Assembly: GCA_963575745.1 (NCBI GenBank)
Contig: CAUYUJ010022401.1
Location: 60,154 to 124,153 of the forward strand
DNA length: 64,000 nt
Direction of reading: 5' to 3'
Source: Prorocentrum cordatum
Taxonomy: Eukaryota; Sar; Dinophyceae; Prorocentrales; Prorocentraceae
Every line of letters begins with the position of its first letter. Position 1 is the first letter of the stretch. The position numbers were made by a program, and so were the translations under genes. The notes beneath the pieces are model-generated. The model did not search any database. It was not told the DNA's origin and saw only the letters and a program-made list of their open reading frames with translations. This document shows positions 23,212-57,988 of this stretch, in pieces.

Positions 23212-25300
23212 TCACGCGGCCCCGTTCGCCCTCTTCGCGTCGCCTGCGCGCGGTCTCCGCCTCCCTCGCCTGCTGCGCCTTCTCGTGAGCCTCCACGTCC
23301 GGAATCCCGATTGTGGCGATGCGCGGGCGCGCTTGAGGGCGCGGCGGTTCGGTGGACGCCGTGCCAGCGCCGGCGCCCACACGAACGACAACGCCAGCCA
23401 CAATCCTCGTCGTCGCCCCGCCTCCACCGCCCACTGACGGGGCCGAAGCCCCACAGTGCGCGCCAGCATCCCAGCACCCTCGGACGCGGCGGCCTCTCGC
23501 GCACCCTCGAAGCCGCCCTGGGCGAACACCTCTGGAGGCGCAGCCGCGGGCGAAGCCTCGGGCAGGGTCCCCGCCGCTGGAACCACCGGCGCAGAAACAG
23601 CGCCCGACGCACTGCGCGCCGCTCGCTCCTGGTACTCCTTCAACTTTGCCTCCGGGATTGCCCCGTCCACGCGCCCATGCCACCCCTTTGCCCCTTGCTG
23701 GCCGAAGTGCCTCTTGCAGAACACGCCGCATCCCTCCGCGGGGAAACTGCGGCACTGCGCACCCACTCCATCCCCCCAAGTACGAGCCAAAAATTTCCTT
23801 TCATCGATCGTCTTCGGCGTAAAGCGATGCCACTCGCGGTCGGCAGGTGGCGCCCCCACGCCTGGCTCGACCGCGGCAGGAGCCGGGCCCGCGGACGGGA
23901 CGCCCGAGGCCCTGCCAGCGTCGTCGTCCTCGCCGCCCGTGCTGCCCAGAGCTGGCGGGGACAGCCCGCGCTTCTTGCCCCTGCGCAACGGCGGCTGCGG
24001 CTGCCCCGAAGCGCCGGGGTCCCCGTCGCCAGCGCCAGGATCCCCGCCACCCGCCCGACGCCGCTTGCCCGGTGGCTCGACACCCGACGCCTGCTGCCCG
24101 GCGGGCGCACTCGGCGGCGCAGACGGCGCGGCAGACGTGCTGGAAGCAGCGCCGCCGCCGCCATCGCCGCTCCCCGCAGACCCCGCCGCGCGCCCGCCTG
24201 CATGCCCGAGAGGCGCAGTCGGCGGAGCCGGCGGCGCACCAGACGGTCCCTCACCAGCGCTGCCGCCGGCGCCCCCCGCAGACCCCGCCGCCGCGCGCCC
24301 GCCGCCTCCGCCCCGCGGACCCGCCCTGCGCACATACGCAAACACATACGCGCCCATGTTCACCTGGTGGTTTCTGGCGATCTGCGCCCAAGTCTGGAGG
24401 TGGACAGTACTGTCGTCGAATTTGGCGTATTCGTTCACGCCCACGGATGCATACGCATAGTAGTGTCCGCTCGTCGCGCTTTCGCCCTGGTGCTCCACGA
24501 CCCCCGAGAAATCGTACTCGCACTCGGAATCCACAGGCCGCAGAATCTGAGGAAAGCGCACAGGGCGTCTGTCGTACCACTCGCCTATCACCCGCTGCAC
24601 GATCACGAAGAGCTCGGGCGGCGACCGCTCCCAGCGATTGCCTGTATATACCCTGATGCCTTGACAGACCCCGGCCGCCGCCCTCTGAGCATCATCGAGG
24701 TGAGCGTGCGCCGGACATCCTTGCCCTGGCTCACCGACATGCCTTAATTCCAGCCGGATCAACTCCTCCAGATCGCACGGCCCCCGGTAGTCGGGGCCGA
24801 GCAAGTCGGAAGGCACCACCTTGAGAAACGTCTTAATTTCCCCCTTGTCCGAACTTGCTGTGCACGCGGCGCATCGCCTCCGCTGCCGAAACGCAATGCC
24901 GCAGACGTGCTGCTGGAGCACACTGCGCTGCCCGTGATCCCCCCCTGCGGTGCAAACGGGGTGTTCGGCCGCGGTAACGGCATGGAGGGCGGCCAGGAAG
25001 AACTCTGACGCGTCGCATTGCTTCGGTCTCCCTTGCTGATCAAATTCTGCAAATTCTCGCTCACCAAAGAGCCCCTTGCGCGCGGCTATAGCGAGTGGCG
25101 CGACGGCGTCGACCCCCTGGACAGAGAGAGCCGCGGCCTGAGCTCCGAGCTCGCACGCCGCGCAAGAGTCTGCACCCAGAGGGCACCGGCCGTGCTCGTG
25201 GAGAAGCCGACGGAAGGGAGCCAGGCGCAGCAGCACCTGCGCGACTGAGCTCACGAAGCAAGTATTGCCGAGGTTTGCGATGCCACGCCAGAGCCGCGGC
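23212..25300 (-). CDS. Ubiquitin-specific protease domain, C-terminal part of the Helitron protein
   Basis: This frame encodes a C19/USP deubiquitinase, expected to cleave ubiquitin from proteins. The Cys box is GIANLGNTCFVSS (Cys codon at 25260). A QD-like box KQCDASEFF and the His box ESATSGHYYAYA follow, and FDDS supplies the third residue, so the triad is complete. Finger-like CxxC pairs (CAAC) lie between. After the domain come about 170 Gly/Ala/Pro-rich residues, then a Cys/His module (LARTWGDGVGAQC ... CKRH ... HGRVDGAIP) that resembles one I recall in dinoflagellate proteins, and a basic tail. The similarity to a family USP begins at LWRGIAN, exactly where the preceding frame (25290-25880) ends its sense, so I read it as a continuation of the Rep-helicase protein after a -1 frame change, not a separate gene. 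It ends with a stop at 23212. Confidence 0.85.
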
Positions 25301-25880
25301 CGCAGTGCCACTGCAGCTCCCTGGTGACCTCCTCCTGGGACACGCCGTAAGCTGCCATGCACAGATCCCGGTCCAGCGGGCGCAGCTCTGGCGGCTCTGC
25401 ACCATCGCCAACAGTCGCCGCCGCGCGAAACATTTCCCCCCAAAGATCCCTCGGCACGACGGTGCCCCTACCGGCGCCGCGGCCGGCACCCCCGCGCCCA
25501 CGCCCCCGCGAAGCAGCGCTCCCAGTGGACGGTGCCGCCGCCGCTTCTGCGGTCGCCGTCGCGTCGCCGCCGCGGCCGCGGCCCCTGCCCCGCCCCGCAG
25601 GCCCTGCGTCGGGCGCAATGTATGCCGGTGGCACCGTCAGAGCCTGGCCCGGGCGCAGCGCGTGCGAGGGCAGAGGCGTCTGCACAGACGCCGCAGGGGC
25701 CACCTCCCCGTCCGAAGGCGCTGATCCAGTGGCGTCGTCGTCGTTGTCGTCGTCGCCCACCTCGTCACCGACGCCCGCTGAGCTCCCCACGGCGCGAGGC
25801 GGGCCTGGCGGCGACGCCCGAGGCACCGTCGGCGGCGCGGGCGCCGAGCTCGACTCCGGGTTGCCCCGTCCCGCGGGCCC
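25290..25880 (-). CDS. Low-complexity linker of the Helitron protein (second shifted frame)
   Basis: In this frame the sequence runs from DGPAGRGNPESSS through Ala/Gly/Pro/Arg-rich linker (GRGRGRGG, DDDNDDD) to a more structured end (RDLWGEMFRAAATVGDG, LDRDLCMAAYGVSQEEV, TRELQWHCGR). The upstream helicase frame ends its sense just before it and the USP frame picks up just after it. Each step equals the loss of one base. The structured end is likely the start of the USP fold or a connecting helix. Confidence 0.6.
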
Positions 25881-26150
25881 ATCCCCCACGTCCAGCCGTA
25901 CTCCTGCGCCCTCTGCTTGGCGATTTCGTAACTCGCTTTGAAAATCCTGCTTTCGAAGCGTTGTACCCCCTCGCGGACGTACTGGGGCGGGCCCCGCTGC
26001 AGGATTTCCCAGGGCGGCAGGTTGTAGACGAGGACGCGATGGGCCACGCGAACGCGACTGAGCATGACGTACAGGTGCAGCCACCAGTCATCGGCGCCCA
26101 TGTTCATGGGCTTCTGGAGCACCATGGTGGCCGCATCCATGCCCAGCCCT
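25876..26150 (-). CDS. End of the PIF1-like helicase (first shifted frame)
   Basis: This frame supplies the helicase motifs missing from the long frame: GLGMDAATMVL (motif V region), LYVMLSRVRVAHRVLVYN (motif VI with the SRV arginine) and a C-terminal helix to QRAQEYGWTWGMG. The long frame gives VRTVQTAQG and then nonsense, so one G is missing at the CAGGGCTGGGC run near 26148, or a -1 slip occurs there. Confidence 0.75.
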
Positions 26151-29100
26151 GCGCCGTCTGCACGGTGCGAACTTTCTCTGGCAGCAACGGGATCTGGTAC
26201 CTCGTAACCTTCACCTTCCGAAGCTTTCGCTCGCCATCGTCTTCGTAGTAGTGATGGTTCCACTCCCAGGACGCCCTGTGCGGCGCGATCTGCACGACAC
26301 CTGCTCCGAACCCTAGGTCCTCCGTGAAGTCATCAAACTTGACGAGGACACCGCGAGGCAAACGCTTGCATCGATAATAACCGAGCCTGTGGGCGTCGTG
26401 AGTCTTCTTTTCGCGCCAATCCGAGCCCGGCGTCTCGAACTCTCGCGGGTGGAACCGCACGTCCTTGACTACCCCCACGGCGTCCTGGACGATCTGGTGC
26501 TTCGCCGTCAACTTCACGGTCAGCCGCACACGCATGCCGATGTACAGCGGGCACATGCCGATGAGGTGACCAGTGTTGTTCACGTTCGGCACCTGCAGCA
26601 TGGCCTTGTAATGCTCCTCACCGAAGGCCGTGGGGGCTGGGGGCAAGTCCACGGCCTGTACGTACAGCAGCATCTGCCCCTTCTCCCTGGCCTCTCGCAC
26701 GGCCCGATACTGCATCTGCCTGTGCACGGCCTCCCAGGCGATGCCCATCTCGAACCCGTCTTTGACAGCGGGGTCCTGCAGCCGCTTGTCGTTCTTACCG
26801 GGTCGGACCACCCACCCTTGCACCACCCTTTTCTGCTCGGCCGTGAACTTCTTGCCCTCCCTCATGGTCTTCAAGAACCCCGGCATGAAAGGGCAGGGCG
26901 CGTGCGGAGTAACGAGCCTGTCCTTGAAGCGGTGCGTCTCGTACAGAAACATCGCGTGGGTCACGCCGTCCAAGAATATCGACTGCCCATTGCGGACGTG
27001 AACCCACTGGTCGGGTGCCTCACGCTGCAGCAGGGAAGACCTCTTGCCTTTGCCGCTCACAGGGCCCAGCTGATAAAAGTCACCCAGGAACATGACAATC
27101 GGAGCCTTCCCGAACATGTGTCCCCGCTCCATGTACAGGTCCACGTCGCAATTGTGCGTCGCCTTCCGGGCTTTGCACATGCGAAACGATGCAGCGCCGA
27201 GAAGCGCAGGCGGCACCATGGACACCTCCTCCACGATGACGGCCTTGAGAGCGTTCATGCGGTCCACGAAATCATCCTCGACTTTCTGCCCGGAGAGCCT
27301 AGCGATGGTCAAGGCCTGCTGCCCGCTCAGCCCGAAGCCGCTGTGGATCGTCTCCCCCCCGATGACGCGCGCAGCGCTGTTCGACGAGGCCACGGCGATC
27401 TCCGATCCCTTGCCGAACACCTCGGCGAACAGACGCCGCAGCAGTTTCACCACCTCCGTCTTCCCCGTCCCGCCCTCCCCGTGCAACAGGAGAGCCATCT
27501 GCTCCACCGGCTTGGGGCTTTTTCCGCTGCGCAGATCTTCCTCGTATGCCACGATGGCCTCCACCTGGCCCACGACCAGGGCGACCACCGCCTTCTGCTC
27601 CTTATTGAACGTCACCGGGTTGTCCGCCCTGGTCGCCCACTCGTCCAACAGCCTCTGCGCGATGTCGCGCGCCCGCGGCGGCCGCTTCTCGTCGCCGGCA
27701 ACCGCGGGCGCCGGCGGCCGACCAGGCACGAGCGCGGCAGGCGCCGAACCCGCGAGGCCGCCCCCCCCGTCGCCATCCCCAGGCAAGCCCTCAGCTCCCT
27801 TCTTCCTGTATCGGAACGCCTCCTTCTGCTGTGCTTTGCCTTCCTCGAACTGAGAGTCGCCCAAGTCGAGACCACCGAATCCGGTCTGCCTTCCAGTACT
27901 CGCGGCAGCAGGCTGCGGCTTATGGTCTCTCGCATAACCCTCAAGGAAGATGTTCTTATAGACCAGGCTTTGTGACGACCCACGAATTTGCTCCAACTGG
28001 GCCACCGCGGGCACCTCGCTATCCGGCACGGCGAACCTGGCCTTCTGTCGGTGCGCCGCCCACGCTTCGTCCGCCTCGCCCTCGTCCACCTCCTCAGCAA
28101 AACCGTCGAAGGCTCCGCCACCGGCGCCCGCCCCCTCCTCCTCGTCCGCCTCCCCGGCAGGCCGATTCTCCGCTGGCTGCAGCTCAGAGTACACAAAGTC
28201 CTTGGCCTCCGGACGAGTCTTGATTCGCGGCCGCCCTTTCGCCTCCGCCTCCACGTCGAGGTTCGTCGCGACCTGGACGGTCCAGCGCGCCATGAACTCG
28301 GCGGCGCTGGGGCGCTGTGCAAAATGGCCCGGGCCCTCCTCGGAGCCGCGATCCAGATCGATGTCCTCGATCGTGAACCACTTTCCAGCTCGCCGCTCGC
28401 AAAGCTCGTACTGCCTGGACAACGCCACCTGCTTCGCCCACCACTCCTCCCAGGCAGGCTTATGCTTCCCGGACGCGTCGACACCGGCCCTGTAGGGCGC
28501 CCAGGCTGCCGCCCCCTTCTCAGCCGGCTGCAACGGGCGAAAAATCACCGACTTGAACAGCGCGTTCACCTCTTCCTCTTTCTCCTTCGAAGGCATCGCG
28601 AAGCCGAAGAACTTGGGCACCCTGAACGGCGCGCCGACGCGGAGCTTCTGCACTCGGGAGGCGGCGGCCGGGTGCGAGTCCGCGAACGCGTACGTCTCGA
28701 AGTCCTGCGCGTCGAAGTGGAGCGGGTTGGCCTGAGCTGTGTACACGTACATGGCGTAATGGTACATGCCCATGGACTTCAGGGGCTCCCTGTCGCCGCG
28801 ATGCAGCCAGTCCATCTTCATGTCGTGCTCCTGCCGTGCCCGGTATTCGACGGCCTGCTGCTGCTGCTCCTGCTCGGGCTGGCCCTCCCCAGCAGCACCG
28901 GCACCCGCGCCCTCCCCGACGACGCCGTTGACGACCTCGGCGCGAAGCGTTGCGCGCCCCTCGCCCAGCGCATCCATGATACCGCCCCCCCCCTCGCCGT
29001 CCTCTTCTCCCGCGGCCGGCTGGTCCACCTCGATGTCCTCTGCGCGGGGGTCGGTCCAGAAGTCGTCCCTTTTCTCGTGAACGGCGTGGCTTGCCTGGAA

Positions 29101-32100
29101 CGCCAGCGCCACGATCCCCTTGCAATACAGAGTCCAGGTGTCATGGGAGCAGTAGCACTCGTGGCCATACTGCATCTGAAACATCATCTCGGGCAACTTC
29201 TTCAGGAGCGCCCGGTGCGAGCTGGTCGTGAGCTTGATGATTGTTCGCCTGGCAGAGTCGAGCACTCCGCCCCAGCCGCTGCGACGAGCGACAGCAGCGG
29301 CCCGGGCCCCGTCGACGTCCTCCTTGCCCTCCTCCTCCGCCGCCTCATCCGCCTCCCGCTCCGCCCTCTGCTGGAGTCGGAGCCACTCCAACCCGGTGCT
29401 CTGCGCGTGCAGCACTCCGAGGTCTCCCGCGATCGGCCCCGCCTTGGTCGTGTAGTCCGTCTGGTAGTGCGCCATATTGATGGCGTCCATGAACACGGCC
29501 TCCAGGGAGTGCAAAACGTGCTCCCGCAGGCTGCCCGGCGGACCGCTGCCGCTCGCGCCAGCAGCTGAGGCGGAGGCGGCGGGCGAGGCAGGCGCGCGCG
29601 ATGCAGGGCCGCCAGAGGCCGCGCTCGATGCGGCGCGGCCCGGCGCCCGCGACCTCGGCTCTGTCTCGACGGCTGATTCTGCCAGCTCGCGCTCCGCGCG
29701 CAGGTCGCTGTAGTAGCCCAGGCCCTGCTCCCCCTTTTTGAACACGAACCCGGGCCGGCTGCCGTCGTAACAGGAAGCCGCGCAGAAGCTCGCGGTGTCC
29801 TCGCCCTGTGGATCTGCCGGCCCGACTGCCTGCTTTACGCCGCTTTGTTCCGGCGTCGGCGGAGGCGGCGGACCCAGGTCATACGCATCGACCAAATCGA
29901 ACACATCTTCATCGCCCCCACCCATGTCCCAGATGTCCCCCGCGTCGGGATCGTCCATCGTGGTGGTCGGCGCCCCGCCGAGCAAGCCGCCTCCCCTGGG
30001 CAGGCCGAGGCGGCGGCCCACGGGCAGGCGCGCCCCCCCCGCCGCAGGCGCGCGCACCGACCCCTCGCCCGCTCCGCCCACGCCCTGAGTTGCGGCCGAC
30101 ACCCCTGATTCCGTGGAACCTCCGCTCTGCCCGGCGCCCTCGTCGCAACCGGTGCCGCCAGTCTCGGCCCCAGCCAGCGCCTCCGACGCGTCGCCGACCG
30201 GCTCGGCGAACGCACCAGGCTCCGGAGGCGGCGGCACGGCCGGGTCGACGTCGGCCGCGGACGCGCCCCCGACGCTGTCGTCGCCGGGCAGGTCGAGCAC
30301 CACGCGGTCCAGACACTGGACGTCCAGGTTGCTCCGCAGACACACCTGGCCCACAGGGTTCGTGCTCCCGTGGTACGGGTGGTACCGCACCACGTCGACG
30401 CGACCAGCTCTGCCGTACCGGTTGCAGCGGTGCGCCCACGGGCCGTAGCCTTCAGCCGGAACGTCGCCCAGATCCAGGCGCTCGCCAGGCGGGTTCCACT
30501 GCCCCTCCTCCAACGGGCCGCACGCGTACTGAACCTTCGCACCTTCCGGAAGCACCAAATCCTTCCCCTTGCGCAGGCGCCGCCAGACGAGAGAGGCGGC
30601 CGGGCGCTTCCTGGACGGGTGGCTGTACACCGCAGTCTCGTACTCGTGGTAGAAGCCAAGCCGGCACACCTTGCAGTGCTGAGGCACATCGTCGTTCGTC
30701 TTGTGCTTCCAGCACGTGGGACCGCACCTGTGCAGGTGGCCACGGATGATACACTTGCGCGCGTCCCGCGCGAAGCAGCCCGCCCAGGTGCGCGCCTCCT
30801 CGTCCGGGCGGTCCGCAAAGTGCATGGCCGCGGTGCCGCCCGCGCGCTCGCGGTACGCAGGCTTGCGGCGGTACTGCGGCTGCAGCGTCACGTGCGCACC
30901 CGTGAGAGGCTCGCCAAAGACCGCCGGGTACTGTGCCCGCTGCTCATGGGGATCGGGCTCTGGATCTGCACACGGCGCGAACGGGCGCTGCCGGCGCGGA
31001 CCCTCAATTGCGGGCTGCTCCTGCAGCATCGCTCGCTCCTCTCCGAGATCGATCTTCATCATGGCCGCAACCTCGTTCCGCAGCTCTTCTGTGGACAATT
31101 TCTTGTCATCACGGACAGAGCGGCGCCCCGCGTCGTACTCCGGCTTGAGAAGCTTCCCGAGCTGACGGCGCGAAGCGCCAGCGATCGCATGGTACTGCAA
31201 GGAGAGGTCGTCCTCCTCCAGCTTCCCGTCCGCGAACGCGAGACGTCGATCCCGCGGGGCGAGCGGAAGCGGCGGCAGCCACTCCCGCCCGCCCCGCCCG
31301 TCCAAGCCCAGCTGCCGGCCCACCTCCTCCGCCGCGTCGAACTGCACGCTGCCGACCCGGGCGAGCACGGCCTCCCTCCACTTCCTCAGACGCCCCTCGA
31401 GGCCTTCGACGTCCCCCGAGCGCAGCTTCGCGAGGAACGCGCCAGTCATCGGGTGCAGGCGCCACAAGTGGATGTGCGGATGGATGCCGCCGCGCCCCTG
31501 CGACTCCACGGGGCCGAAGTACGCGCGGACGAGCCCGAACGCTCCACACGCCCCCGTGGCGGCCACGCCGTCGGAGACGCCCGTGGCCCCGCGCTGCGGC
31601 GTGACGCCGACGACATGCTCCAGGAACAGTTCCAGCATGAGGTTCGTGACCATGGCCTGCGACACCGGGTCTGCGGCCACCCGCCGCAGCATCTCCCGCG
31701 TCGAGGGCATCACGGGAGAGGTCTCCTCCAGCAGCCGCCATTGCTGCACGGAGGCGCCCTCGTACATCAGGGACACCATCAGATTCCGAGTGTCCGCGAT
31801 GTTCGGCGTCGTGAACACCAGGGGCGGACCAAAGAGCCGGGTGTAGCTGGTACTGATGTGCCGCAGCGTGGTCCGGTGCGCGTCGGAGCCGACGACATCG
31901 CGGTTGCTGAGCAGCATGCTGCGCAGCGCGCTCTTGACGTTCCGGGGCACGCCCTCGTGGCCCAGGGCCTGCTTCAGGCCCGCCCCCCTGCCGAGCTCGG
32001 CCACGACCAGCGCCAGATCCTCCGGCGTCAAAGCGGCCAGGTCCGCGATGCTTTCCCCGAGGCGGTGCTTGCGCACGAATAACCTGGCCGACTGAATGAT

Positions 32101-32791: not shown

Positions 32792-32808
32792 CTGCAGTGA
32801 ACGTGGGG

Positions 32809-32877
32809 GGTTGTAAGAGTTACGGGACTTGGTAAGTGAGTTGGGCCAAGTTGTAAATCCAGCTAAGTAGTTGCAAG
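32809..32877. repeat. Short subterminal repeats, left edge
   Basis: GTTGTAAG, AGTTGTAAATCC, GTAGTTGCAAG and TTGCAAGTAG are scattered over ~70 bp, inverse in orientation to the cluster at 49575-49626. Confidence 0.6.
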
Positions 32878-33023
32878 TACTTGCAAGTAGCAGACATGTT
32901 GCTGGACGCAAAACATTTTTCTGTTGGGGGATCGTATTCTACACCACGCGAGACGCAAGCTCAATGTGATGAATCACTGCAGATTTTCATAAGATCAATG
33001 CGATCGGGCGCAAACAACGCATG

Positions 33024-34389
33024 TCATACACGGCCGCCTACCACTTGAACATCGGAGGCACAAAGGCGATCGAGCCACCTCCACTGCGTCTGCAAGCCTT
33101 CGGGCGGCTCGCAATCCTCCTTATCCACAACGACGCGCGCCCCATGTATTGCGCAAGTGCGCACGGCTGTTTTTAAGCTGGCCCAGTGTGGTTTGGGCCG
33201 CGAGAGCACGCGTGCATTTGGAAATTCACGTACATGGGGCACGCGCACTGTGAATTCGGTGGTTTGCCAACAGCCCTGCACCATCGCTGTGATGATGTCG
33301 GTCGTGTGAACCAACTGCACGTCATCGTCGGTCTCGACCAGAGACAACACCCCAATGGTATCGTCGTAACGAGTAACAGTCCAAACAGAAACCAACGATA
33401 TCATAGTTCCACTGACGGAAGCATGAAACCAAACCTCGCCAACAGCCTTGTTGCCACCTGGCACTGCAAACAAAACAATGTCCCGAGAATGGCAGACAGT
33501 CAAGGAAGAACAACGAGCCGCCATGGCCGTGGTGACGGACTCCTGATCGAGCTTGGCGCCAAGCCTCTCCTCCAGGAATCTGTGCATTTTCTTTGGTGCC
33601 GACCTTTCGGGCTTCATCAGGTGCGGCGTAAAATCGAACGCGTCGGTGCTTTGTAGGTTTGCCAAGTGCAGGCATGTAACCTCAGACAACACGCTCTTCT
33701 CTGAAGCTTCCAACTGCAAGATATCATTGAGAAAGCGCTTCGGCGTCTTGTGTTTTCTCTCGTGCACGAAGCACGAAAGAAGCGTTTGAAATTTTTGCAG
33801 GTGCCTGGGAAAATGGATCAGCCAATGGTATTTGGGGGTCATGTACTCCTGCCACCCTGCTGCTTCACATGCGTCGATGAAATCATTGGTCCTCCCCCTG
33901 AGAGTGGCGGGCGATGCGTGGCCTGAAACCCCTGCAAGTATGCACCATATCAGGTCGCACATGCGAACGAAGGCGGCGCACGCCGCTCGAGCAACCCCTT
34001 TGGGCAAAATGATTTTCATAACAAACACGTACATGACGGGAAGCAATGACAATGCCTCGCTCGCTTGGCACTTGAACGATTTAGCCTTCACGTTGGACGT
34101 CTCGCGGCCTTTGAGAAATAGGTTCGCCAAGTTGCGCCCGCTAATGCCCCCGCGGGGCAAGGACCATAGCCCGACGTACTCATGCAACCTAGCGTACAGG
34201 TCCGACACCCCGTCGCTCTTGCAGGCAGCAAGGAAAAGGAATGTGGTGATGTTGAAAACACCCCGAATAAAGAATGCATGCATCCAGTCGTGGCAATACT
34301 GGTCCACTGGAAGAACGACGGTATCCAGCTGCGGGTCGAGCATCATGTTCTCTGCATTGTGGTTGAAACCGAACGCCTGTTCACGAATC
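33024..34389 (-). CDS. Transposase-like protein, exon 2
   Basis: The exon starts after a CGCAG acceptor with IREQAFGFNHNAEN and runs 455 codons to a stop. It includes DQYCHDWMHAFFIRGVFN (HDWMH motif), a Ser/Leu-rich helical middle, PKYHWLIHFPRHLQKFQTL, and a C-terminal beta-rich half. I recall the same order (MYxDEVTPGN ... CHDWMH ... PKYHWL) in a high-copy dinoflagellate family that looks like a DDE-type transposase of the tnp2/CACTA or KDZ kind, with the Asp of exon 1 and of HDWMH as candidate metal ligands. That assignment is from memory and unverified. The short Gly run upstream (C26 on the plus strand) is intronic. Confidence 0.6.
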
Positions 34390-35123
34390 CTGCGGAAGCG
34401 ATTACCCCGCGCGCCCGCAACACATCGCCAGGGTGCGCCGAGCGCAGAGGACAGGCGATGCGCCGCACGAGCGCGGGGAATCGCGCACTTGATGCCCCCC
34501 CCCCCCCCCCCCCCCCCCCCTGCCATCCCCCAAGAAGAGATTGAGGGCGGCGAGCGGTGATGAGGAGGGGGATGATGAGGAAGAGGAGGATGAGGAGGGG
34601 GATGGGGAGGAGACGGAAGGATGGCAGGGGGGGGGGGAGGGGGGAGCTCAGGCGGTCAAGGGAGATACCTCTTCCAACCCCCATTGTCCCCCTTCGGGAA
34701 TCATTGAGCGTGCGCGTGCAAGAATTGCAACGCAGCAGGTCGGCGTTGATTCGTGCGTTTCCATAAGTGATCTGGGCGCAGCAGGCTGAATAATACACTG
34801 TAGCAACACAGCAAGTATTTGTATCATCCATGTGATGGTGATCTGGGCGCTGTGTATAATCCGACCCAGTAGAAACGCAGCAGGCCGAATCCGACCCAGT
34901 AAGAGGGGTCCGACAGAAACCCAATGGAGCCCCATTACCGCTCAAGAGCGCCCCATGAAAGCTTTCCCAAAAAGGCAGACGAGGCAAGTTTAAGCACTCT
35001 CGAAAAGCAATGCATCCTCTTCGTAGTAGTAGTAGGTGTGGTAGTGGTAGTGGTAGTGGTAGTGGTAGTGGTAGTGGTAGTGGTAGTGGTAGTGGTAGTG
35101 GTAGTGGTAGTGGTAGTGGTAGC

Positions 35124-35186
<63 letters not shown>

Positions 35187-35300
35187 CGTAGTGTTAGTCG
35201 TTGTAGTAGTAGTAGTAGTAGTAGTGGTAGTAGTATTAGTAGTAGTAGTAGTATCAGTCGTCGCAGCAGCAGCAGCAGCAGTAGTAGTAGTACTAGTATA

Positions 35301-35336
<36 letters not shown>

Positions 35337-35377
35337 GTAGTGGTAGTAGTAGTAGTAGTAGTAGTAGCCTTAGTAGC

Positions 35378-35426
<49 letters not shown>

Positions 35427-35660
35427 ATACTACTACTACTAGCAGTCGCAGTTGCAGCAGCAGTAGCAGTCGCAGTCGCAGTAGCAGTGGCCGTGACAGT
35501 AACAGTAGCAGTAGCAATAGCACTAACAGTAGCAGTATATAACAGTAGCAGCAGCAGTGGCAGTAAACGGTTCGGCATCATCACCTCAACTCGCCTGGGC
35601 ACCGTTTCTGGATGGGTTAGTGGGATATGCGAAGCGCCAGGCATTTGCAGCCCCCCCCCC
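34390..35660 (-). other. Intron of the transposase-like gene with microsatellite
   Basis: Exon 1 loses sense after ADFKT (35665) and exon 2 begins at 34389 with a CAG|G acceptor. The exact donor is uncertain because a G10 run (C10 on the plus strand, 35651-35660) sits at the boundary. The intron holds a C26 tract (34495-34520), a long TAG repeat, and modules at both ends that match the intron upstream of 47853. Confidence 0.65.
35023..35570. repeat. TAG/GTA trinucleotide repeat, ~550 bp
   Basis: Blocks of GTAGTG, TAG, and imperfect CAG/TAC variants. Long Ser, Val, Leu or Thr ORFs in every frame are products of the repeat. Confidence 0.95.
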
Positions 35661-46683: not shown

Positions 46684-47107
46684 CTGTCGGCAGAGATGCA
46701 AACCCCTGAATGCCCTGCGTGGCGCAGGCGCGCCCGCCCCCTCGCAGCGCACATAACGAACCAGAACAACGTGTAGACGTGTACATCTGAAATCTCTGTA
46801 CAGGTAAGCATACATGTATAATTATGTGCATACATACATACATACATGTGTATGGATAACATGAAAATTACATACACGCAATATGCGTGTATACGTACAT
46901 GTATATAAACACATTTTTTATGTATGTAAACAATCGAAAGTATATGTATATACATGTATCAGTACATGTGCATGTACAACTATATAAACAAAATGTGCAT
47001 TTCATGCTGCGGGCGCGCGCGCCTGCGCCGCGCGCAATGCGCCCGCATCAGGGCGATGCTGGCGCATTGGCGGGAATGTCAGACGAAGCATGTTGCGAGC
47101 TGCCTGC
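46684..47107 (-). other. GC-AG intron, 424 bp
   Basis: The donor reads CAG|GCAGGC (47107-47106 are GC on the minus strand) and the acceptor GACAG|GGTTAC. Phase-0 joining gives MNQPPCQ followed by GYIEKIG, restoring one continuous protein. The intron is AT-rich with CATA-type repeats (46800-46900), unlike the exons. GC donors are common in dinoflagellates. Confidence 0.65.
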
Positions 47108-47853
47108 CTGGCACGGGGGCTGGTTCATCTTGACTGCCTCCACGCACGAGCTGAATGAAGAACCCGCTGGCATAAGCTCGGCAAACTCGCTAATGCTCAC
47201 GCACACCTCGAGCTCGGACATCAAGCTAGCAACGTTGTTGCTCGCATTCAGAGCACGCTGCGCCAAGTCTGGAAGGTGCGGCCATGTGACCTCTGCCTGC
47301 CACGGCACAATTGTCCAGAGCCACCCCTTGGTGATGGCATTCTTGAAACGCGGGTCCCTGCACAAACCCTCGGCGTTCAACTTGCCGCCCGACGCCGAAT
47401 CAGCCAAACTCGGCTCCGAAGTTGCGCACCCGAACTTCGCGGCCTTGAAAAACTGCGTTGTGTGGCCTGTGCCAACAGAGAGGAACCGCTCGCTGCCCGA
47501 CGCTGGCGCCAACATGCCCTTGCTGGCAGAAATGAGCTTCTCATTGAAAGCCACCTGGCTGGACCTCATCGGATCCATGGGCATGCGCTCGAAAGCCACA
47601 CCCTTCTCGAGCTCTGCAGGGTCCACGCCGATCTGCTTGAGCATCGCGCCGACGCGGTGCACGTTGTATGCATTGACGCCAAGCCCCGAGCGGTTCGAAG
47701 GGTGAATGAGGAACTCCTCAGGCAGGCAAATGACCTTGTTGGCCACCTTGTCCGCAATAAGCCGATCGATGCAATCCTTCCAAGCGGTGATCGGAGCCAG
47801 CAGGCCATCGCGATGCATCTTGATGCGGCCCATGATGTAATCGTTCAACTCTG
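47108..47853 (-). CDS. Dinoflagellate family protein, exon 1 of the visible pair
   Basis: Sense starts after TCTGCAG with ELNDYIMGRIKMHRDGLLAP, without an ATG at the boundary, so an upstream exon is expected. Visible parts: ICLPEEFLIHPSNRSGLGVN, AYNVHRVGAMLKQIGVD, GSERFLSVGTGHTTQFFKAA, RFKNAITKGWLWTIVPWQAE and LAQRALNASNNVASLMSELE. I recall the HPxNRxGxGVNAYxxHxxG and ALNxSNxVxxxxxELE patterns from a large dinoflagellate family without known function. The donor is at 47107. Confidence 0.6.
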
Positions 47854-48650
47854 CAGAATCCCAGCAGCCCTCTGTGGGCCGTAAAGGTCATGGGAGATCC
47901 CTTTTCCAAACCCCTTCTTCCCCTTCGGGGATGGGTTTGCCACTCTCCCTCATATACATGGACCTGGACGGGGCGCCCCACGATGTGTCAGAGGGTAGCG
48001 CGTCGCCCAAGATGGCTCCAAGACGGCCTCACAGGGCCCATGGCGGCTTCAAATGGCCCGATATAGCGCAATATCGCTCAATATGGCTTCCAAGCTGCCC
48101 CATCCTTCGAACCGTTTGGCTGTACCCTCTTTGTTCCTACCCTTCCCTCATCACCTCAACTCGCCTGGGCGTAGTTTCTGGATGGGCATGGTGGGGATAC
48201 ACGCAAAGCGTCAACAATACAAATTCTGCATTGTGTGCAATATAAATCAACGACAACAATATCGTCCTCGCACGAACACAGCTCGAGCCCGAAACGCCTC
48301 TATGCAAAGCAAAGAACACGCGCAACATGGAATGTCGACGTGGTGGAAACCACCTGCAAATTCATTGCACCCATATCGGAAATCCCTCTGCCCAGGCTGC
48401 ACCATTTGCAAATTTACATGGTGCAACGTATTGCATGCCAAGTGTTGGTGTACATGGGCGCTGTTGCGATGGTCGGAAATCATCGCGTCAGATAGGTGCG
48501 CTTCACGCGCGCTAGGTGCGTTCGGAACGTATGCCTGCCACTATGGCACAACTATCCTCAAAGCGATGCATTTCAATGCAGCTGATTGTCGACCCACATG
48601 ACACAGTGCATAATAATGAAACGTATTCCGCATATGATATGCAAGATTGC
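47854..48650. repeat. Intron or spacer with repeat, copy A
   Basis: Unit A (about 48106-48650) recurs at 48774-49310. The part next to the acceptor (47887-47935) and the CCTCAACTCGCCTGGGC module (48147) also match the two ends of the intron at 34390-35660. No gene is supported. Confidence 0.7.
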
Positions 48651-48773
48651 CACTCTCCCTTTTGCTCGCTATCATTTCTCTTTGCCCTCCTCCTCCTCCT
48701 CTTTCTACACGATTTCGCATCCTTCTCCCTCATCCATCATCCATCCATCCGTCGTCATCCTTATCATAATCCT

Positions 48774-49310
48774 CCTTCGAACCGTTTGGCTGTCCCCTCT
48801 TTTTTCCCACACTTCCCTCATCACCTCAACTCGCCTGGGCAAAATTTCTGGATGGGATGGTGGGGATATACGCAAAGCGTCGAGAATACAAAGTCTGCAT
48901 TCTGTGTGTAATATAAACCCACGATAACAATATCTTCCTCGCACGCACGCAGCTCGAGCCCGAAACGCATCTCACATCAAAGAACACGCGCAACATGGAT
49001 TGTCGACGTGGCCGAAACCGCTTGTAAATTCATTGCGCCCATATCGGGAATCCCTCTGCCCAGGCTGCGTCGTGTGCAAATCTACATAGTGCAACATGTT
49101 GCATGCCAAGTGTTGGTATACACGGGCGCTGTTGCAGTGCTCGGATATCCTCGCGTCGGATAGGTGCACTTCGCGCGCGCTAGGTGCGTTCCAAACGTAT
49201 GCCTGCCAATTTGGCACAATATCCTCTAAGCGATGCATTTCAATGCAGCTGATTGTCGACCCGCATGACAAAGTGTAGAATACTGAAACGTCTTCCGCGA
49301 ATGATTGGCA
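48774..49310. repeat. Repeat copy B
   Basis: Starts CTTCGAACCGTTTGGCTGT like copy A and stays similar through CCCTCTGCCCAGGCTGC and GATGCATTTCAATGCAGC, offset about 668 bp, with roughly one base in seven different. Confidence 0.85.
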
Positions 49311-49574
49311 ATATCGGAAAAAACAAGTGCCGAGGGTCGCGGTAAGAGAAATATGGCCAGCGAAATTGCTTCTTGTTGTCCAACATAACCGCGCGCGCTT
49401 TTTAACATGACTGAAAATCCGCTTTTACATGATTGCACTTCACCATCCCCCCCCCCGCCCCCGCCGACTTGTAAGTTGAGGTAACTCTGGATAAATGCAC
49501 CCAAACTTTGAAAATGTTATGCGAGTTGCTAAGGCACTAATGCTGGTTATGAGAATGTGTAAGCAGTCATCTGA

Positions 49575-49626
49575 CTTGCAACTACGTTGCAACTACCTTA
49601 CAACTACGTTACAACTACCTTACAAG
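49575..49626. repeat. 11-bp tandem repeats, right edge of the nested interval
   Basis: TTGCAACTACG, TTGCAACTACC, TTACAACTACG and TTACAACTACC follow one another, then TTACAAG. The inverse motif occurs at the other edge (32867-32877). Confidence 0.85.
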
Positions 49627-49640
49627 TCAACGCAAGTCAC

Positions 49641-52600
49641 CAGTTCACACCAGTAATGTCGGCGTCCGCGACGGCGGCGCAGTACTCGCCTTCTTCGACA
49701 CCCTCGCCGCCCTCTCCCTCGCCAGCCTCGCCCTCGTCGCCCTCTGCATCCTCTCCACCAGCGCCAGTAGCGTCCTCACCGCTGGCCCCTGCCTCGCCCT
49801 CTGCCTCGCCCCCGCCGTCTGCCGCCGCGTTCGCGTCGCCCTCCGCGCTCGCAGCGCCTGCACTCGTCCGCTTCGGCGGGGCCGAGCCCACGCCGGGCTG
49901 CACGGCATCGGCCGGGCCCTCCTGGCGAGCGTCGCCACCCTCACCCCCCACGGCCACGCACGCCGCGAGACAGCGAGGCAGGCCCAGGAGCGAGGAGCCG
50001 TCGCCATCGCCGTCGCCCTCGGGGTCCGCAAAGTTTCGCGCTGCCTCTTCGTCCCACCGCACTGCGGCGTACTGCTCGTTCGTGTCGCGGAGGTAATCGT
50101 AAGCGCGCTTGAAATCGTCGAGGGGCACGCCGAGCTCCTCCAACCGCGCCTTCTGCAGGGTGGCGGGATCGGAACCCGCGAAGACAATCTGCACAAACTC
50201 GACAAGATCGCTCTCCCGCGGCGGCAGCGACAGCACCTGCCGACCGCCGTCCGCCTGCGGGAACGCCACGAAGTTCCCCACGTACGCCTTGATCTGCTGG
50301 TCGATTGGAGCCCACTGGCCAGAATCGGCCTTGCAGTTGAACCGCCGCACGATGCCCCGCGCGATGGGCAGCAGAAGCTTCGCGCCCAGCGTGAGGTTCC
50401 GCAGCGGCGGTGGCAGCCGACCGATCCAGAGATCGTTGGCCAGCGCGCAGGGCGGCATCGTGGGCAACCTCTTGGAGAGCGCGCCGTGACACCCTGCGCA
50501 GATGGGCACCTTCTGCTTCGCGTCGGCCACGAGCACCCCGTCTGACTCGCGCCTGTCAATCTTGAAGCACTTCTTGTGCAAGAGCCACAGCTTCCCGTCT
50601 GGGCCAGGGTCGCGCACTGCGGACGCCTCCAGCTCCTCGAGGGGGATGCCGCCCGGGCGCTCGACGCCGTTGGGGCCCTCGCGCACGAAGCGCCACCGGG
50701 CGTGGTACCGTGCCGGGTCCAGCAGCGCGTGGGCGCGCTGCCGCTGCGTCAGGCGCATGGCCTGCGCCTGCGCGCCCGCGGCCTCGGATGCCTCTCCCCT
50801 CGCCGCCTCGAGCTCGGCGCGCGCGGGCGGCTTCGGCACCTCGTCGCAGAGCAGCGAACGCTCCCCGGCGCCGGCCGGCTGCTGCCAGAAGTGCACGCGG
50901 TGCAGCTCGTCCGCCCAGTGGAGACGAGCGCAGACGCAGCAGGCGACCCTCGAGCGCACGGCGCGGCGACTCTGCCCGGGCTCGGGCCCCTCGGCGTCCG
51001 ACGCCGCCGGAGCAGCGCCCAGCGCGTCCATGTCCACGGGCGGCATGTCCACGCCCGCGGGCGGCACGGCCCCGTCCGCGCCTGGCGGCTTCCACCAGGC
51101 GCGCGGCGCGTCCGGCGCGGCAGCGGCGGCGGCGGCCTCCCCCGAATCGGCGGGCGCTGCGCAGGCCGGCCAGTCGTGAGACCCCGTGACGAGGTGCTCC
51201 GAGAAAGCCTCCACGCACTGCCGCCACTCCTGGGGCCTCACGGGCCGCACGTCGTCGTCCTGCTGGGGCCACTGCTCGGCCAGGTAGAACAGGCGCTTCC
51301 TGTACTCCGGCCACCCGTGGTGCTTTTCGTCCACGTGCTTTCTGAAGCCGGCATGCGTGGCGAAGTTCTTGTCGCAAAGGCGGCACGGGAACGGCGGGAG
51401 AGCCTCCGGGGCCTCTTTAAACGCCCGCAGAGGGCCGCGCTCGTCACACGGGAGGGCCACATACTTGGGCTGGAGCCTGGGCACGCGCGCCTTGCGAGCG
51501 GCAGCGATGGCCGGGGTCGGCGCGGGCGGGGCGCCGCCGGCCTGCGTCTCGCGCTTCCGCGCCTCCTTCACGGCCATGTCGTACCGTTCCGGGCACTCGC
51601 GGGTCAGGGAGCTGTGGCCCTTGTCCGGGTCCCACAGCCCGAGAGTTCGCTGCTCGGGTCTGCCATGGCTCCCACAGAACTGCCCTTCGCCTTTGCAAGG
51701 ATTCCGGCACTGCGCGAGCAAGGACACGCAACGGTGCTGGCGCCAGACGCGCGCGCGGCACCTGCCAGCGACGCACGGCGCGGGGTCCAGGAGCCACGCC
51801 GGCAGGGTGCCCTCCTCGCTCACGTGGGGGTCATCCAGAGCCACGTTCACCTCCACGTCCCCTGCCTTCACTGTCTTCCCTCTGAGACGCTCCTCCTCTT
51901 CCTTCCGCAGCCGCTCCTGCTGCAACCGCTCCTGGTCCTTTCTCTCCGCCCCGCGAGTCCGCGGCCCTGGGCCCTCGGGAGCTGGCCTCTTGGGTCCGCC
52001 GCCGAGCAGCCGACCCGCGCCCCCGCCCGCGCCCCCGTCGCCGTCGCCGCCCGCGCCACCGTCGCCCGGCCCCCGCGCGCCAGAGCCCGACCCCGACGCT
52101 GGTCCACCGCCCGCACCGCTGCCCGAAGAAGGCCCGCCGCCGCCGCCGCCCCCCGAAGAGTCGTCGCCGCCGGCCCCTCCTCCCACCACCTCATCCCCGC
52201 ACCCCGCCAGCCGCAGCCAGTCGCTGCATGTTCGGTCCAACCAGATGCGCACGAATTCCTGCGAATACTTCGTCGCCACCCTTGCAACGCCCCGCGCGAG
52301 CTTCGCTTCCTTGAAATCGGGCTCCCCGCGCCGATCGGCGAACGCGTCCGGCCAGACACCGCCGTGACGGGCACGGAAATCGTCGAGGGCAATCAGAGCG
52401 CGCCTGTCCGTGTCTGTAAGCGCCGCGTCCTTCTCCACCCCGGCGAGCAACGCGGGATCCCTGTCGAGCGCGGCGAGCAGGCGCTGCTGGTCCAGGTCCC
52501 AGTGCCCCGCGGCGAGGTTCCACGTCAAGCCCACGCCCGCCCGCTCCCGGCGCACGAAAGCCGCCACCTGCCGCGCCGCCTGAGGCTTCAGCTTGAGGAG

Positions 52601-55600
52601 CTGCTGCCAGACGGGCCACTCGGGGATCGCCTGCGGCTTCAGGTCCGCCAAGTACACGGGCGGCTTCAGGTCGCCACTCCCCGGGGATCGCCCGGCGCCC
52701 TCCGCGGCCTCCACCCTGTACATGATGTCGCGGTCGCCCTCGAGCTGCTGCAAGCGCGCGGCCAGGGCGTCGCCCATGCGAGCGACGCCGCCGCGCGCGC
52801 GGCACCAGGCCCGCAACAGCCAGAGCTCCGCGGGCACGTCGCCCGGCTCGCCCGTGTAGTAGCCGCGCCGCCCCTGGGGGAACGTGTCGGCGGGGAAGCC
52901 CGACTCCACGGCCTCGGAGAAGAACGCACCACCATGGCCGGCCCACGATTTCGGAATACCGAAGACGCGCGGCCACGGCGCCAGCCTGCTCCCGTCGGGC
53001 CCCGCGCGCTGGTACCAGGGCTCCAGGGCGTGTCGCTGGTCGTGCTTCACGCTCGCTTCGCAGTTGTCCTGGTGAAAGCACTCGTTCTCCAGCAGCAGAC
53101 CGCGGAACTCAGCGAATCCGTTCTCCCCCCTCGCCGCGCACCCGGCCGCCTGCTTTCGCCGCACGGCGCGGGCGCGCTCCGCTTCCACCGCCTCGCGCTT
53201 CGCCGCCAAACTGGGCAGCTTCTTCTTCGACGTGAAATGCAGCCTCTCACACCACGAAGTGACCTCCTCGTCGCTCATCACGTCCCCTCCGCCCCGCTCG
53301 CGCTCGAACTCCTGCTGGCACTTGTAGCAGAGGAAATCAGAGGCGAGGCGCAGGAGCACGCTGCCGTGCACCGGGGCGCCAGGTGCGCCGTCCAGCCGCG
53401 CCTGCTCTGCGTACCGCGCCTGGCGAGTCGCCTCGCGCACCTCCCCAGGCCTCCAGACCTCTCCCTCGGCGGCGTCCAGCGACGGCAGCGGCGGCGCGCG
53501 GACCGGCCCCAGTTTGCCGTCGTCGCGGAGCGGCGCGCGCCAGCGCAGCGGCTCGCGACGGCAGCAGACCCAGACCTCGCGCTCCACGCCCTCCTGCTCG
53601 AGCCGGTCGAGCAGGCGCTGCCACTGCTCCCAGGGCTCCCGCACGTCCGAATTGGGCACGGGCGTGCGGCGCAGCAGCTCGGGGTCGGCCTTGCGCAGGC
53701 GCCGGATCGCCTGCGACCGCGCCACGTTGTCCTGCGCCGTGGCCGCGTCGCGCCCCAGGGCGACGTCCCGCAGCCGCTCAAGTCCCGCCACCTGCCGCTG
53801 CAGCTCCGCCTCCGGCGCCTCCCCCGCGAAGAACCTCGGCAAGACAGGCACCCACGACAGCATGCAGGTCGCCAGCACGTACCGCACGAAATCCTCGTGC
53901 TCCTCGCCGACGCCCGCGGGCAGCTCCCCCTCGTCCGCCATGCCCCGCGGCTCTTCGTCCGCGTCCGCCATCTCTGCGTCTCCCTCCTCCTGCTCTCGTC
54001 GCTCGTCGTCGCCCTCCTCCTGCTCCTGCTGCTGCTGCTCCTGCTCCTCCTCTTCCAGCTCCTCTTCCTCCTGCTCCTCTTTGTCTTCCTCCTCATCCTC
54101 CTCCCCGAGCGCCTCGCGGCGCGGCTCTTCGGCCGCCGGGGCGGCCAAGGCTTCACGGACCCGCCTGTCTTTGGCCAGGGCAGCGAAGACGTCGAGCCCG
54201 AGCGCGGCGCCCTGCAGCGCGTCCACGTACGACAGCAGGGCGCCCACGAGCGCGGTCTTCACCCGCCGAGCCAGCGCCCTGTCTGCCCTCTGGAACCTGG
54301 CGAACATATCCTGCGTGACCTCCGCGCGCCGCTCCTCCGCGAGGCAATCGGCCGGGTCCGGCTCTTCCTGCTCCTCCTCCTCCCCGCAGGCCTCCTCCCC
54401 CTCCTCCTCGGCCGCGCGCTGCAGCAGCTCCTGCCGCTGCGCCTCGAGCGCCCGCGCCTCCGCCTCCCTGCTCTCGGCGTCGCGACGCGCGGCGGCCGCC
54501 TGCGCGTACTTCTGCCGCAGCGCGTCGAAGGTGTCGGGCGCGTTAAACGACGCCTCGCGGCCCCCACGCTCGCGATTCGCGATGAACTTGGCCAGCTTGC
54601 GCTCCTCGTCATCCTCCGCCTTCTCCACCGGCATCCTCTGGTTCTTCTCGCACCACGCCTCCAGCGCCTGGACCTGGATGAGATCCGCGTCCAGCGCCGC
54701 CTCCAACTGCGCTCGCCAGTGCTCGTCCAGGCCCTGGCGGCCGTGCGCGCGCACGTTGCCGATCCACATCGCGAGCAGACGCTCCCGCGCATCGTCGTCA
54801 TGACCGCCGCTCCTGGGCGCGCGCCCGTGTGTCTCCACGAAAAGCTTCACCTCGAGCACACGCTGCTGCGCCGTCCGCCGCTGCCACATGCCCCTGTTCA
54901 CCAGCTCATCGAACCTCTCCTGATTGTCATCGTCCAGCTCGTTCTGTCCTTTGACGACATTGTGGATCCAGTCCGCGAGCTTCTTCTCCTCCTCGTCCTC
55001 TGCCCCCTGCTTCGGCAGCTCGTCGAGCACCTCCACGTGCTCCTCGATGCGGTCCAGCATCGCGCGGGCGCGCGCGCGCCTCTCCTCCCGCCGGTCCACG
55101 AGCCCGTCGAACCGCGCGCGCCGCTCGGGGGTCAGCACGTTCTGGCCCTCGGTCACATTATGCACCCACCTGCCCAGCGCGGACTCCTTCTGCGACGGAA
55201 CGCGGTCGTGCTCCTCCACGTGCCTCGCCAGCTCGCCCAGCATCTCCTCCGAGTAGTCCCGCGATCGCGCCTCCGCGCCAGCATGCTGCACACCGCTCAT
55301 GTCGATGCCCAGGTGCGCCGCGAGCGCGGCCCTGTGCACGTCGGCGTCCAATCGCACCCGCTTCTGTTGCTGAACATTCCATTGCCGCGAGGCTGGCGCG
55401 TCTTCGTCGCCCTCCGCCCGCAATCGCGTTGCCAGCTCATGCAACTGATTCCGGGTCATACGCGCCAACACCTCCGCGTCCACACCGTCGCGCGCGCCCC
55501 CGCGCGCACCCTGCGCCCCTGCGGCACCCTGCTCCACACGGCGCTTCGGCGCCCCGCCCAGCAGCGCGCCACGCCCCGCACCCGCGCGCGGCGACCGCGA

Positions 55601-57988
55601 CGCCGAGCTCGAACGCCCGTGAGCGACGACGCGACACCACGGCGCGCTCTCGGCTTCCCCCCACTCCACGTCGCCAGAGCTCACCGACTCCTCCACGGCG
55701 CACACGTGGCCGCCGTCGAGCCAGAGCAGAGTACCAGCGCAGAAGCCCGCCGCGTGCCCCAGCGCCCACGCCACGCGCCTTCCTTCCTGCACTTCGAACG
55801 CTTCCACAGATTCCGCAGAGAACACGCGCACGTGCAGGAAGCGGGAGCGCAAGTGCTGGACCACGACCTCAAGATTCCACCTTTCCACCAGCGACCCACA
55901 GGCGCCCGAACCCTCGTGGTTCTGGCATGCGCGGCCGAAATGCCCCGCGGCGTCGCCCCCGACGAGTTCAGCCACCGCGCTCTGCAGGCACTTCCCGCGC
56001 CACTCGACTGGACAATTCCCACGCGCGCGGCGGTTCCCCCGCCCGCGCCCGCCGCGCGGCCGTGGGCGCGGTGGGCGCGCGGCACCGAATGCACCCACAG
56101 ACACGGGCACGGCGCCGTCCTGCGTCGCCGCGCTCAGCCCCGCCGGACACGCTCCGAGAGCGATCATGGCGAAGGCAGCGCGCACGGCCAGGTCCCCGAC
56201 GAAGACCTTGGACTCCCGCGCAGCCCGGCACTTCGCTCCGCCGATGCCGACGCCCGGCGAAAACCGGCGCGCACAGACGCGGCGGCCGCCGCACGTCCGC
56301 GCCGAGAGCCCGTAGAGCGCGCAGCAGAACCACCTGGCGGTGACGACCGCGGCCTCGCGATCGGCCAGCTCGGGCGCGTCCGGGAGCTCCCGCGCGAACA
56401 CATCCCGCTGCCGCCACCAGCGCGCCGCCGCGATCTTCCTCGTCATCACCACTCTGCCGTCTTGCTGTGGCGGGCACGCGCCGAGAGCGACGAGGACGCA
56501 GGCAGCGCGCAGGGCCGCGTCTCCCACGGTCCACGACGACGCGTCGGGCGCGGCCATGGCGGCGGCGCGGGGGGCGCGCGCCGGCGGCTGCTCCGGGTCG
56601 ACGGCACGGGCCGCTCGCGCGGTGAGGAACTGCTCCACGCGCCCGTTCTTGCAAGCCGCCCCCGAGCTGCGCCCAGACGAAACCCGCTCTGGCGACGCGT
56701 CGCGCAACAGCGAGCGCGGCACGACGGGGAGCAGCACACGGTGTGCAAGCTGCTCGTTCCGCTCGGCCGCCGCCTCCGTCCGCCGCGCCCACTCCGCCTC
56801 CCGCCGCGCGCGCCGAGACCGCCGGCACGACGCTCGGCACGCTTTCCGGACCGCTTTCTGCTCGCGCTCCGCCGCCTCCAGCGCGGTATCATCGACGACC
56901 TCCTCGTGGATCACGTCGTGCTCTGCGAGCAAACACTCCTGCACCCGGTCATCCCATGAGCGCGACTCCCGGGCCGGCGACGGGCGCTCCGCGTACCGCC
57001 CCCGAGAACCGAGCCCGCCCCCCGCCGAGGTCCCGTCCCCGTCCGCGTCCCGGTCCTGGTCCCGGTCCTGGTCCGGGTCCCGGTCCCGGTCCCCGTCCCG
57101 GTCCCGGTCGTCGCCGTCGACGTCGTCGTCGTCGTCGTCGTCGTCGTCGGCGCCCTCCTTCTCCTCCTCCTCCTCCTCCTCCTCCTCCTCGTCTCCCTCT
57201 TCCTCCTCCTCTTCCTTCTGCTCTTCCTCCTCCTCCTCCCCCTCCTCCTCCTCCTTATCCTTCTTCTCTTCCTCCTCGTCTTCTTGCTCCTGCTCCTCCT
57301 CTCCCTCGTTCTCCTCCTGATTCACCTGCTTCTCCTGCTCGCTCTCCAGATCTCCGTTGTCGCATATGCCGCCGCAGTCGCCGCCACCTCCAGCCAAGGC
57401 AATCTTCTTCTGCTTCGCCTTCTGCTGCTGCTTCTTCTGCTCGGCCTCCTCCTCCTCCTGATCCTCTTCCTCGTCTTCCTCCTGCTCTGTCTCGTTTTCC
57501 TCCTTCTGCTTCTCCTTCTCCGGCTCTTGCTCCCGGCGCGAGGTCAGCTCCGAGGAATTCTGCCAGAGAACACGCGCCTCCGCAACATTCGCCAAGCAAG
57601 AAAATGCCCGGAAAAAATTCGCGAGCATTTCCCCCTTGTAGCGATTATTTGCAAGGAAAACTACGCCTTCAACACAGCGCGCCGGGCAGAAAAACGCTTG
57701 CGAAATATTCGCGAGCGTTTGCCCCTCCCAGAATGCAGCCCTGTGCATTGTGCACCCCACTCCTTCAAAACTAATCTGATCTACCCTGTCCGGTACGGCC
57801 CAGGGGTTGCCTATCGGCCTTGAGTGGAGAATTCGGGCCCAATACGGCGCCCGGGACGAGTACGTGCTGGCCCCTACAATAACACCCCGGTACGGCTGTG
57901 CTATTGGGTCCACCAGTCGCCACTCGCCCCCGCCCGAGACGACAAAGGGCCCGGCACGGCTCCCGATGTCGTCCTCCAAGGTCTCCAT
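49641..57988 (-). CDS. Giant N-terminal exon of the Helitron protein (2783 codons)
   Basis: ATG at 57988 (METLEDDIGSRAG) opens an uninterrupted frame. Residues ~150-320 are Glu/Asp/Lys low complexity. GDAALRAACVLVALGACP (~490) and GDLAVRAAFAMIALGACP (~598) are internal duplicates. Residues 658-765 (GKCLQSAVAELVGG ... WLDGGHVCAVEE) look like a papain-fold peptidase segment, with C667 and H761 as candidate catalytic residues. Four helicase-associated-like repeats lie at ~913-1160 (HVEEHDRVPSQKE...LGRWVHNV and relatives). After more acidic and unique sequence come a Gly-rich linker (1935-2000), a Cys-rich CRARVW...QC...FCGSH module (2072-2120), a C2H2 finger CRLC...HVDEKH (2202-2223) and a DUF6570-like domain: CAGCHGALSKRLP, ANDLWIGRLPPPLRNLTLG, YVGNFVAFPQ (~2497-2650). 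DUF6570 normally precedes the Rep domain. The stop in this frame lies just after a GT donor (AACTG|GTGACT), so splicing to 32791 is likely. Confidence 0.85.

Follow-up and report, generated by a model that had tools for sequence, protein, structure and literature searches.

Helitrons and Helentrons carry OTU-like cysteine proteases (PMC4067079, PMC6431247), whose activity in Helentrons is described as untested (PMC9741609). In animals, the zebrafish Helentrons DrT1 and DrT2 fuse RepHel to a papain-fold deubiquitinase of the VTD class, which is active on K48 and K63 chains and was proposed to spare proteins required for transposition from being degraded (PMC9741609). For the RepHel of Pleurotus, a fungal Helitron paper reports that a cysteine protease was not detected (PMC4289320). 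The OTU and VTD proteases already hinted that these transposons must fight ubiquitination. Here, we analyzed a Helitron-type gene on the minus strand of a 64,000-nucleotide stretch of DNA from the dinoflagellate Prorocentrum cordatum (contig CAUYUJ010022401.1, positions 60,154 to 124,153; the whole stretch is called the window below). We consider it likely that this gene specifies a single product with the order HA (helicase-associated) repeats, Cys/His module, C2H2 finger, DUF6570, HUH/Y2 Rep, PIF1-like helicase, ubiquitin-specific protease (USP) and a second Cys/His module, in which the USP would deubiquitinate locally. Cellular USPs such as USP46, USP12, USP14 and USP36 belong to MEROPS family C19. 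Among the literature matches listed, we saw none reporting a USP-class protease on a Helitron, and no mention of DUF6570 was found in the literature searched.

Like the OTU Helentrons, the window's gene would equip an element of the Helitron type with an accessory cysteine protease that belongs to the ubiquitin pathway (PMC4067079, PMC6431247), and like the VTD Helentrons it joins RepHel to a papain-fold deubiquitinase (PMC9741609). However, OTU is a different family and is encoded by an additional open reading frame (ORF) (PMC4067079), whereas the USP (PF00443) stands in the helicase frame in homologs. The VTD enzymes belong to another deubiquitinase class with a D-x-H triad, unlike the window's USP with Asp/Asn after the His, and VTD Helentrons possess a C-terminal AP (apurinic/apyrimidinic) endonuclease (PMC9741609), which was not found here.

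Results and discussion

A Pfam scan located all four domains on the minus strand, beginning with DUF6570 (50042..50461, E 6e-19) and continuing with Helitron_like_N (E 4e-11), PIF1 (E 3e-13) and finally UCH/USP (24334..25287, E 9e-19). Together with the motifs given below, this bears out the preliminary description, which had recognized a Helitron motif set on one strand in the usual order, followed by a USP. Two long stop-free runs, of 2950 and 2252 codons, each surpass the longest run (median 552, maximum 1304 codons) in every one of 100 resampled windows.

Homologs were collected with a helicase query lacking the USP, which returned nine proteins, and with a separate USP query; both searches scored the roughly 8000 candidates sharing most words with the query. 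Precomputed Pfam annotation lists DUF6570, Helitron_like_N, PIF1 and UCH in one protein for P0010, P0011 and P0013, whose ORFs occupy 96.5-97.8% of 10-11 kb contigs. The domain order was confirmed with hmmscan for P0010 and P0013, while the P0011 reading frame stops within its USP. DUF6570 lies at residues 1-138 of P0010, 674-812 of P0013 and 796-935 of P0015. P0012 contains three of the Pfam domains, without DUF6570, P0014 combines helicase and UCH, and P0016, which starts shortly before helicase motifs V-VI, also contains UCH. The USP query added P0006, with helicase motifs and UCH, the partial USP proteins P0004, P0005 and P0007, and P0008 and P0009, which are cellular USPs. Because relatives hold all four domains in one protein, these comparisons support the view that the USP belongs to the Helitron protein, as had been proposed from the window alone. 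Copies ending after the helicase without a USP had been named as evidence against that proposal, and we saw none among the informative matches: UCH is present in all six same-clade helicase-query matches whose sequence extends 480 residues or more beyond motif VI (P0010-P0014, P0016). P0015 stops before the helicase and P0017 stops 17 residues past motif VI, both too short to judge. The distant P0018 (25% identity over 11%) continues past its helicase with no Pfam UCH match and maybe a USP-like domain.

Three frame changes lie between the helicase core and the USP in the window, and Helitrons are described to capture gene fragments (PMC6431247), so that the USP might be an independent host gene, or a fragment captured recently, that happens to follow a Helitron copy. 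We reject this explanation, which we regard as very improbable, on the basis of single-frame homologs: helicase motifs and UCH share one frame in P0006, P0010, P0012, P0013, P0014 and P0016. Moreover, the linker and the C-terminal tail are conserved, and USP and helicase trees share broad groups. The frame changes and the 16.8-kb interruption of the window's gene would also fit an artefact of assembly or merged transcripts. That the architecture arose in this way is barely credible given that homologs under two sources (ncbi and ena), 36-50% identical to the window, keep the order, the linker and the C-terminus.

Trees were built from 11 USP rows and 9 helicase rows. In the helicase tree, the window groups with P0014 and P0006 (100/99), P0010 lies outside, and P0012, P0013 and P0016 form a second group (90/81). 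In the USP tree, the window groups with P0014, P0006, P0005 and P0007 (94/98), followed by P0010 (89/95), with P0012, P0013 and P0016 outside, their branching not settled. The preliminary description had proposed checking whether the two trees track each other; the same broad groups appear in both and show co-inheritance of the USP with the helicase at this level. Pairwise identities of the two domains correlate with a Spearman coefficient of 0.75 (21 dependent pairs, helicase pieces of unequal length). Between the window and P0014, the USP is 45% and the helicase 69% identical, indicating that the USP changes faster. In contrast to cellular USPs, the window's USP sits in a transposase polypeptide, and it is split from the two cellular USPs tested.

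Membership of the Helitron class is indicated by both enzymatic modules. The Rep domain (31468..31989, minus strand) comprises Helitron_like_N (31471-31989), above the Pfam cut-off, and ends in the HUH motif HPHIH (31468-31482); it is followed by the Y2 motif HYQTDYTTK (29443..29469). Among same-clade proteins spanning the respective sites, H-P/A-H and Y-x3-Y are each found in 6/6. C-terminal to Rep lies a PIF1-like superfamily 1 helicase core (26998..27495, Walker A at 27457-27480). Helicase motifs I, II, III, V and VI, not IV, were sought by pattern, and the window protein P0002 contains the HUH and Y2 motifs together with motif III and Walker A/B of the helicase. The start of motif V is still in the frame of the helicase core, while its remainder and motif VI (25874..26149, 68% identical to P0014) are read in another frame; homologs have the motifs in one frame. 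The Helentron subclass was considered and dismissed, since no endonuclease domain corresponding to its C-terminal AP endonuclease was found: no endonuclease family matched P0012, P0014 or P0016 at E 0.01 or P0010 or P0013 at E 1, and no family matched the window tail (23215-24300) at E 5. This check took in these five proteins and the tail, not P0006 or P0011.

The USP domain (peptidase C19) is complete, with a Cys box (catalytic codon 25258-25260), a His box GHYYAY (His codon 24463-24465) and FDD downstream (Asp-Asp codons 24412-24417), all on the minus strand. The catalytic residues are conserved, the predicted structure is a full USP fold, and the listed fold matches to cellular USPs have 16-24% identity. 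A VTD assignment was ruled out by residue order, as GHYYAY then FDD is present instead of an Asp-x-His motif, and neither Pfam nor the fold suggests OTU. The product of about 6000 residues invites the thought that the USP could be a processing protease cutting a giant polyprotein rather than a deubiquitinase acting on other proteins, and viral deubiquitinases often process polyproteins (PMC9741609). We find this improbable in view of the full USP fold, several matched entries of which are ubiquitin-bound USPs.

For a Helitron product with its own deubiquitinase, Rep would nick the element and the helicase would peel off a strand as in other Helitrons, a role suggested here by motifs only. The tethered USP would remove ubiquitin locally, so that the transposase itself would most likely act as the deubiquitinase, and its action would protect the transposase from proteasomal turnover. 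Alternatively, it might strip ubiquitin from chromatin or replication proteins where the element leaves or inserts. Deubiquitinase activity, its substrate, a benefit to transposition and current mobility of the element are presumed in this scheme. A third deubiquitinase class on Helitrons, in the same frame as the helicase and following it in broad groups, makes convergence hard to dismiss and raises a directly testable question, namely which protein carries the ubiquitin mark that limits rolling-circle transposition, and what that mark is. The gene further provides a defined autonomous-type protein for a little-described transposon group, probably of dinoflagellate genomes.

Several observations weigh against this reading. 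The trees have two cellular USPs as their only outgroup, and the split of the Helitron USPs from these (100/100) is weak because 46 of 500 label shuffles gave an equally clean separation. Several inner branches are also weak, and the window's nearest relative is P0014 in the helicase tree while the USP tree leaves P0006 versus P0014 undecided. The HUH pattern failed on the distant P0017 and P0018 (H-x-H is present there by eye), and the tblastn map missed the USP part of P0014, for which direct comparison gives the 45% stated above. Helitron ends are defined by a 5' TC, a 3' hairpin with CTRR and insertion at A^T; a scan for CTRR plus a hairpin found no convincing termini within 20.5-23.2 kb. 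Lastly, the window's gene shows four frame changes, near 26.15, 25.88 and 25.29 kb and between 23.56 and 23.47 kb.

Coding extent and state of the window copy

Mapping of 12 homologous proteins resolved the gene into segments that are each free of stops in their own frame: 52,885-49,841 (frame -1), 32,784-26,146 (-2), 26,149-25,874 (-1), 25,892-25,284 (-3), 25,287-23,563 (-2) and 23,467-23,162 (-1). Between the first two segments, nearly 17 kb lack homology. The fourth frame change is bracketed (23,467-23,563). Homopolymer error is not an obvious cause, since three of the four changes have no run of at least four equal bases nearby; the second adjoins runs of G. The window copy is probably defective through these changes unless they are assembly errors. 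P0004, 97% identical to the window over 216 residues, starts in another frame of the same stretch.

The 5' coding part, or exon 1 (49641..57988, minus strand), lies within the stop-free stretch 49640-58489, the 2950-codon ORF, and its putative start, a tentative ATG at 57,988-57,986, agrees with the position given previously. Homologs align over 52,885-49,841, and none of the 12 aligns upstream of 52.9 kb. We read the upstream region as coding because of its GC3 pattern (GC content at third codon positions), of a coding type from about 57.6 kb, and the HA domain found there (PF03457, 55103..55249, E 2.1e-8, two stretches). An N-terminal Cys/His module (C-x-A-R-x-W ... QC ... C-x2-H, 51665..51760) recurs in P0011, P0013 and P0015. 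It is followed by a weak C2H2-type zinc finger (51320..51391, E 0.02, below the Pfam cut-off); similar residues, judged by eye, are also present in these three proteins.

At the other end, the linker between helicase and USP (25284..25892) changes frame again and is matched by P0014, P0005, P0006 and P0007 in frame -3. The C-terminal tail (23162..24096) ends at a stop at about 23159. P0014 is 78% identical to it over 24096-23563 and 69% over 23467-23162 and matches its end, so that the homology-backed C-terminus lies near 23,159 and replaces the end at 23,212 proposed earlier. The tail includes the C-terminal Cys/His module (23707-23796), which has lost its first Cys in the window copy; module and linker recur among homologs. 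The Cys/His signature is thus found towards the N-terminus as well as the C-terminus of the protein family, and no family name for it came out of Pfam scans of the regions concerned. No Pfam family above cut-off was obtained for the two ORFs that contain motif VI and the linker either. From the tentative ATG, exon 1 contributes about 2783 codons and the 32,791 to 23,162 part 3210 codons. The proposed protein of nearly 6000 residues therefore stands in length and not as a single open frame, given a 16.85-kb interruption and the four frame changes.

The interruption (32792..49640, minus strand, 16,849 bases) is compatible with an in-frame GT-AG intron, with borders G/GTGACTTG ... CACTGCAG/TATGG, and the mapped homologs show no corresponding gap. 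Its ends form an imperfect terminal inverted repeat (11/13), a quality reached by 21 of 2000 random pairs, and a TA duplication is possible by eye. Prorocentrum cordatum is a GC-rich dinoflagellate (the window has 58.5% GC) whose long introns contain an excess of introner elements flanked on either side by inverted repeats; introners are recognized by inverted repeats of 8-20 nt and short direct repeats at the intron ends (PMC10666404). Perhaps the insert is a giant introner. Its sequence was not found elsewhere in the window (blastn, E 1e-10), and no Pfam family above cut-off was matched by six ORFs of the insert or by two plus-strand ORFs.

Such a very long intron with inverted-repeat ends, as in dinoflagellate host genes (PMC10666404), the failure to find termini and the long intact coding part upstream could indicate domestication, in which the cell would have retained a former Helitron RepHel-USP for its own replication or repair. 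We judge this unlikely, if less so than polyprotein processing, since the HUH and Y2 nuclease residues are kept in 6/6 same-clade proteins and there are several divergent relatives that share 36-66% identity with the window. The frame changes, with the different starting frame of P0004, resemble transposon decay, which is not decisive. Separately, the P0005 USP is 60% identical to that of the window and its linker is conserved, but its C-terminal tail differs and closes with Cys/His motifs; P0005 may be a separate or domesticated form.

A more distant lineage

P0018-type Helitron proteins share with the window the order DUF6570, Helitron_like_N and PIF1 followed by a long C-terminal extension. 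They differ in that the C-terminal domain has no Pfam name and may be a very divergent USP-like fold. It contains the motifs WDNxNWSCAYDS, two CxxC pairs and FHFVxR...WYNDG, and P0022 unites the same domain with helicase motif VI within one ORF. Against USP profiles, the domain scored above all 150 column shuffles, but with only 16-26% probability and lower in other set-ups; the sole PDB match of the A3 profile was USP34 (E 0.048). The top seven matched rows for a weak AF2 model were USPs. When positions are counted from where the alignments start, the SCAYD Cys coincides with residue 146 of Ubp8 and residue 77 of USP30, the residues mutated in the matched entries Ubp8(C146A) and USP30(C77A). 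The order of His, then WYND or WFHD, is as in USP and unlike VTD.

A C-terminal USP could plausibly be an old component of the DUF6570-type Helitron. More tentatively, and with the odds somewhat against it, a USP-fold deubiquitinase might be ancestral and near-obligate in DUF6570 Helitrons across distant eukaryotes, Pfam-recognizable in the window's clade and too diverged in the P0018 lineage. Were this true, deubiquitinases of at least three unrelated classes (OTU, VTD and USP) would have been acquired by Helitrons, which would point to a general need for ubiquitin removal when rolling-circle transposition takes place in eukaryotic nuclei.

Other features of the window

PHROGs gave no matches beyond helicase and exonuclease V, Rfam gave none, and a pattern for the dinoflagellate spliced leader had no match in the window at up to three mismatches. 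Searches of virus records (queries P0014, A2 and P0012) and genome contigs (P0014) returned no relative, which carries little weight for virus and prokaryote collections. One of eight CTRRT sites had a hairpin, at 20709 on the edge of a 177-bp repeat array, with 0.15 expected by chance. Host repeats flank the gene island at about 21.48 and 58.78 kb, and repeat comparison across these borders gave no usable ends.

A tandem repeat family of 176-178 bp occurs on both sides of the island (283-2091, 14981-15491, 18306-21105, 59926-60601 and 62327-62649). The CA-rich 3' flank appears to be an imperfect tandem duplication (21471-22180 and 22182-22900, about 710 bp apart). Further away, a 351-bp tandem array lies at 12191-13458, and a 1392-codon ORF on the minus strand (5624-9799) that encodes an RVT_1 reverse transcriptase domain (E 2e-9) probably belongs to a retrotransposon.

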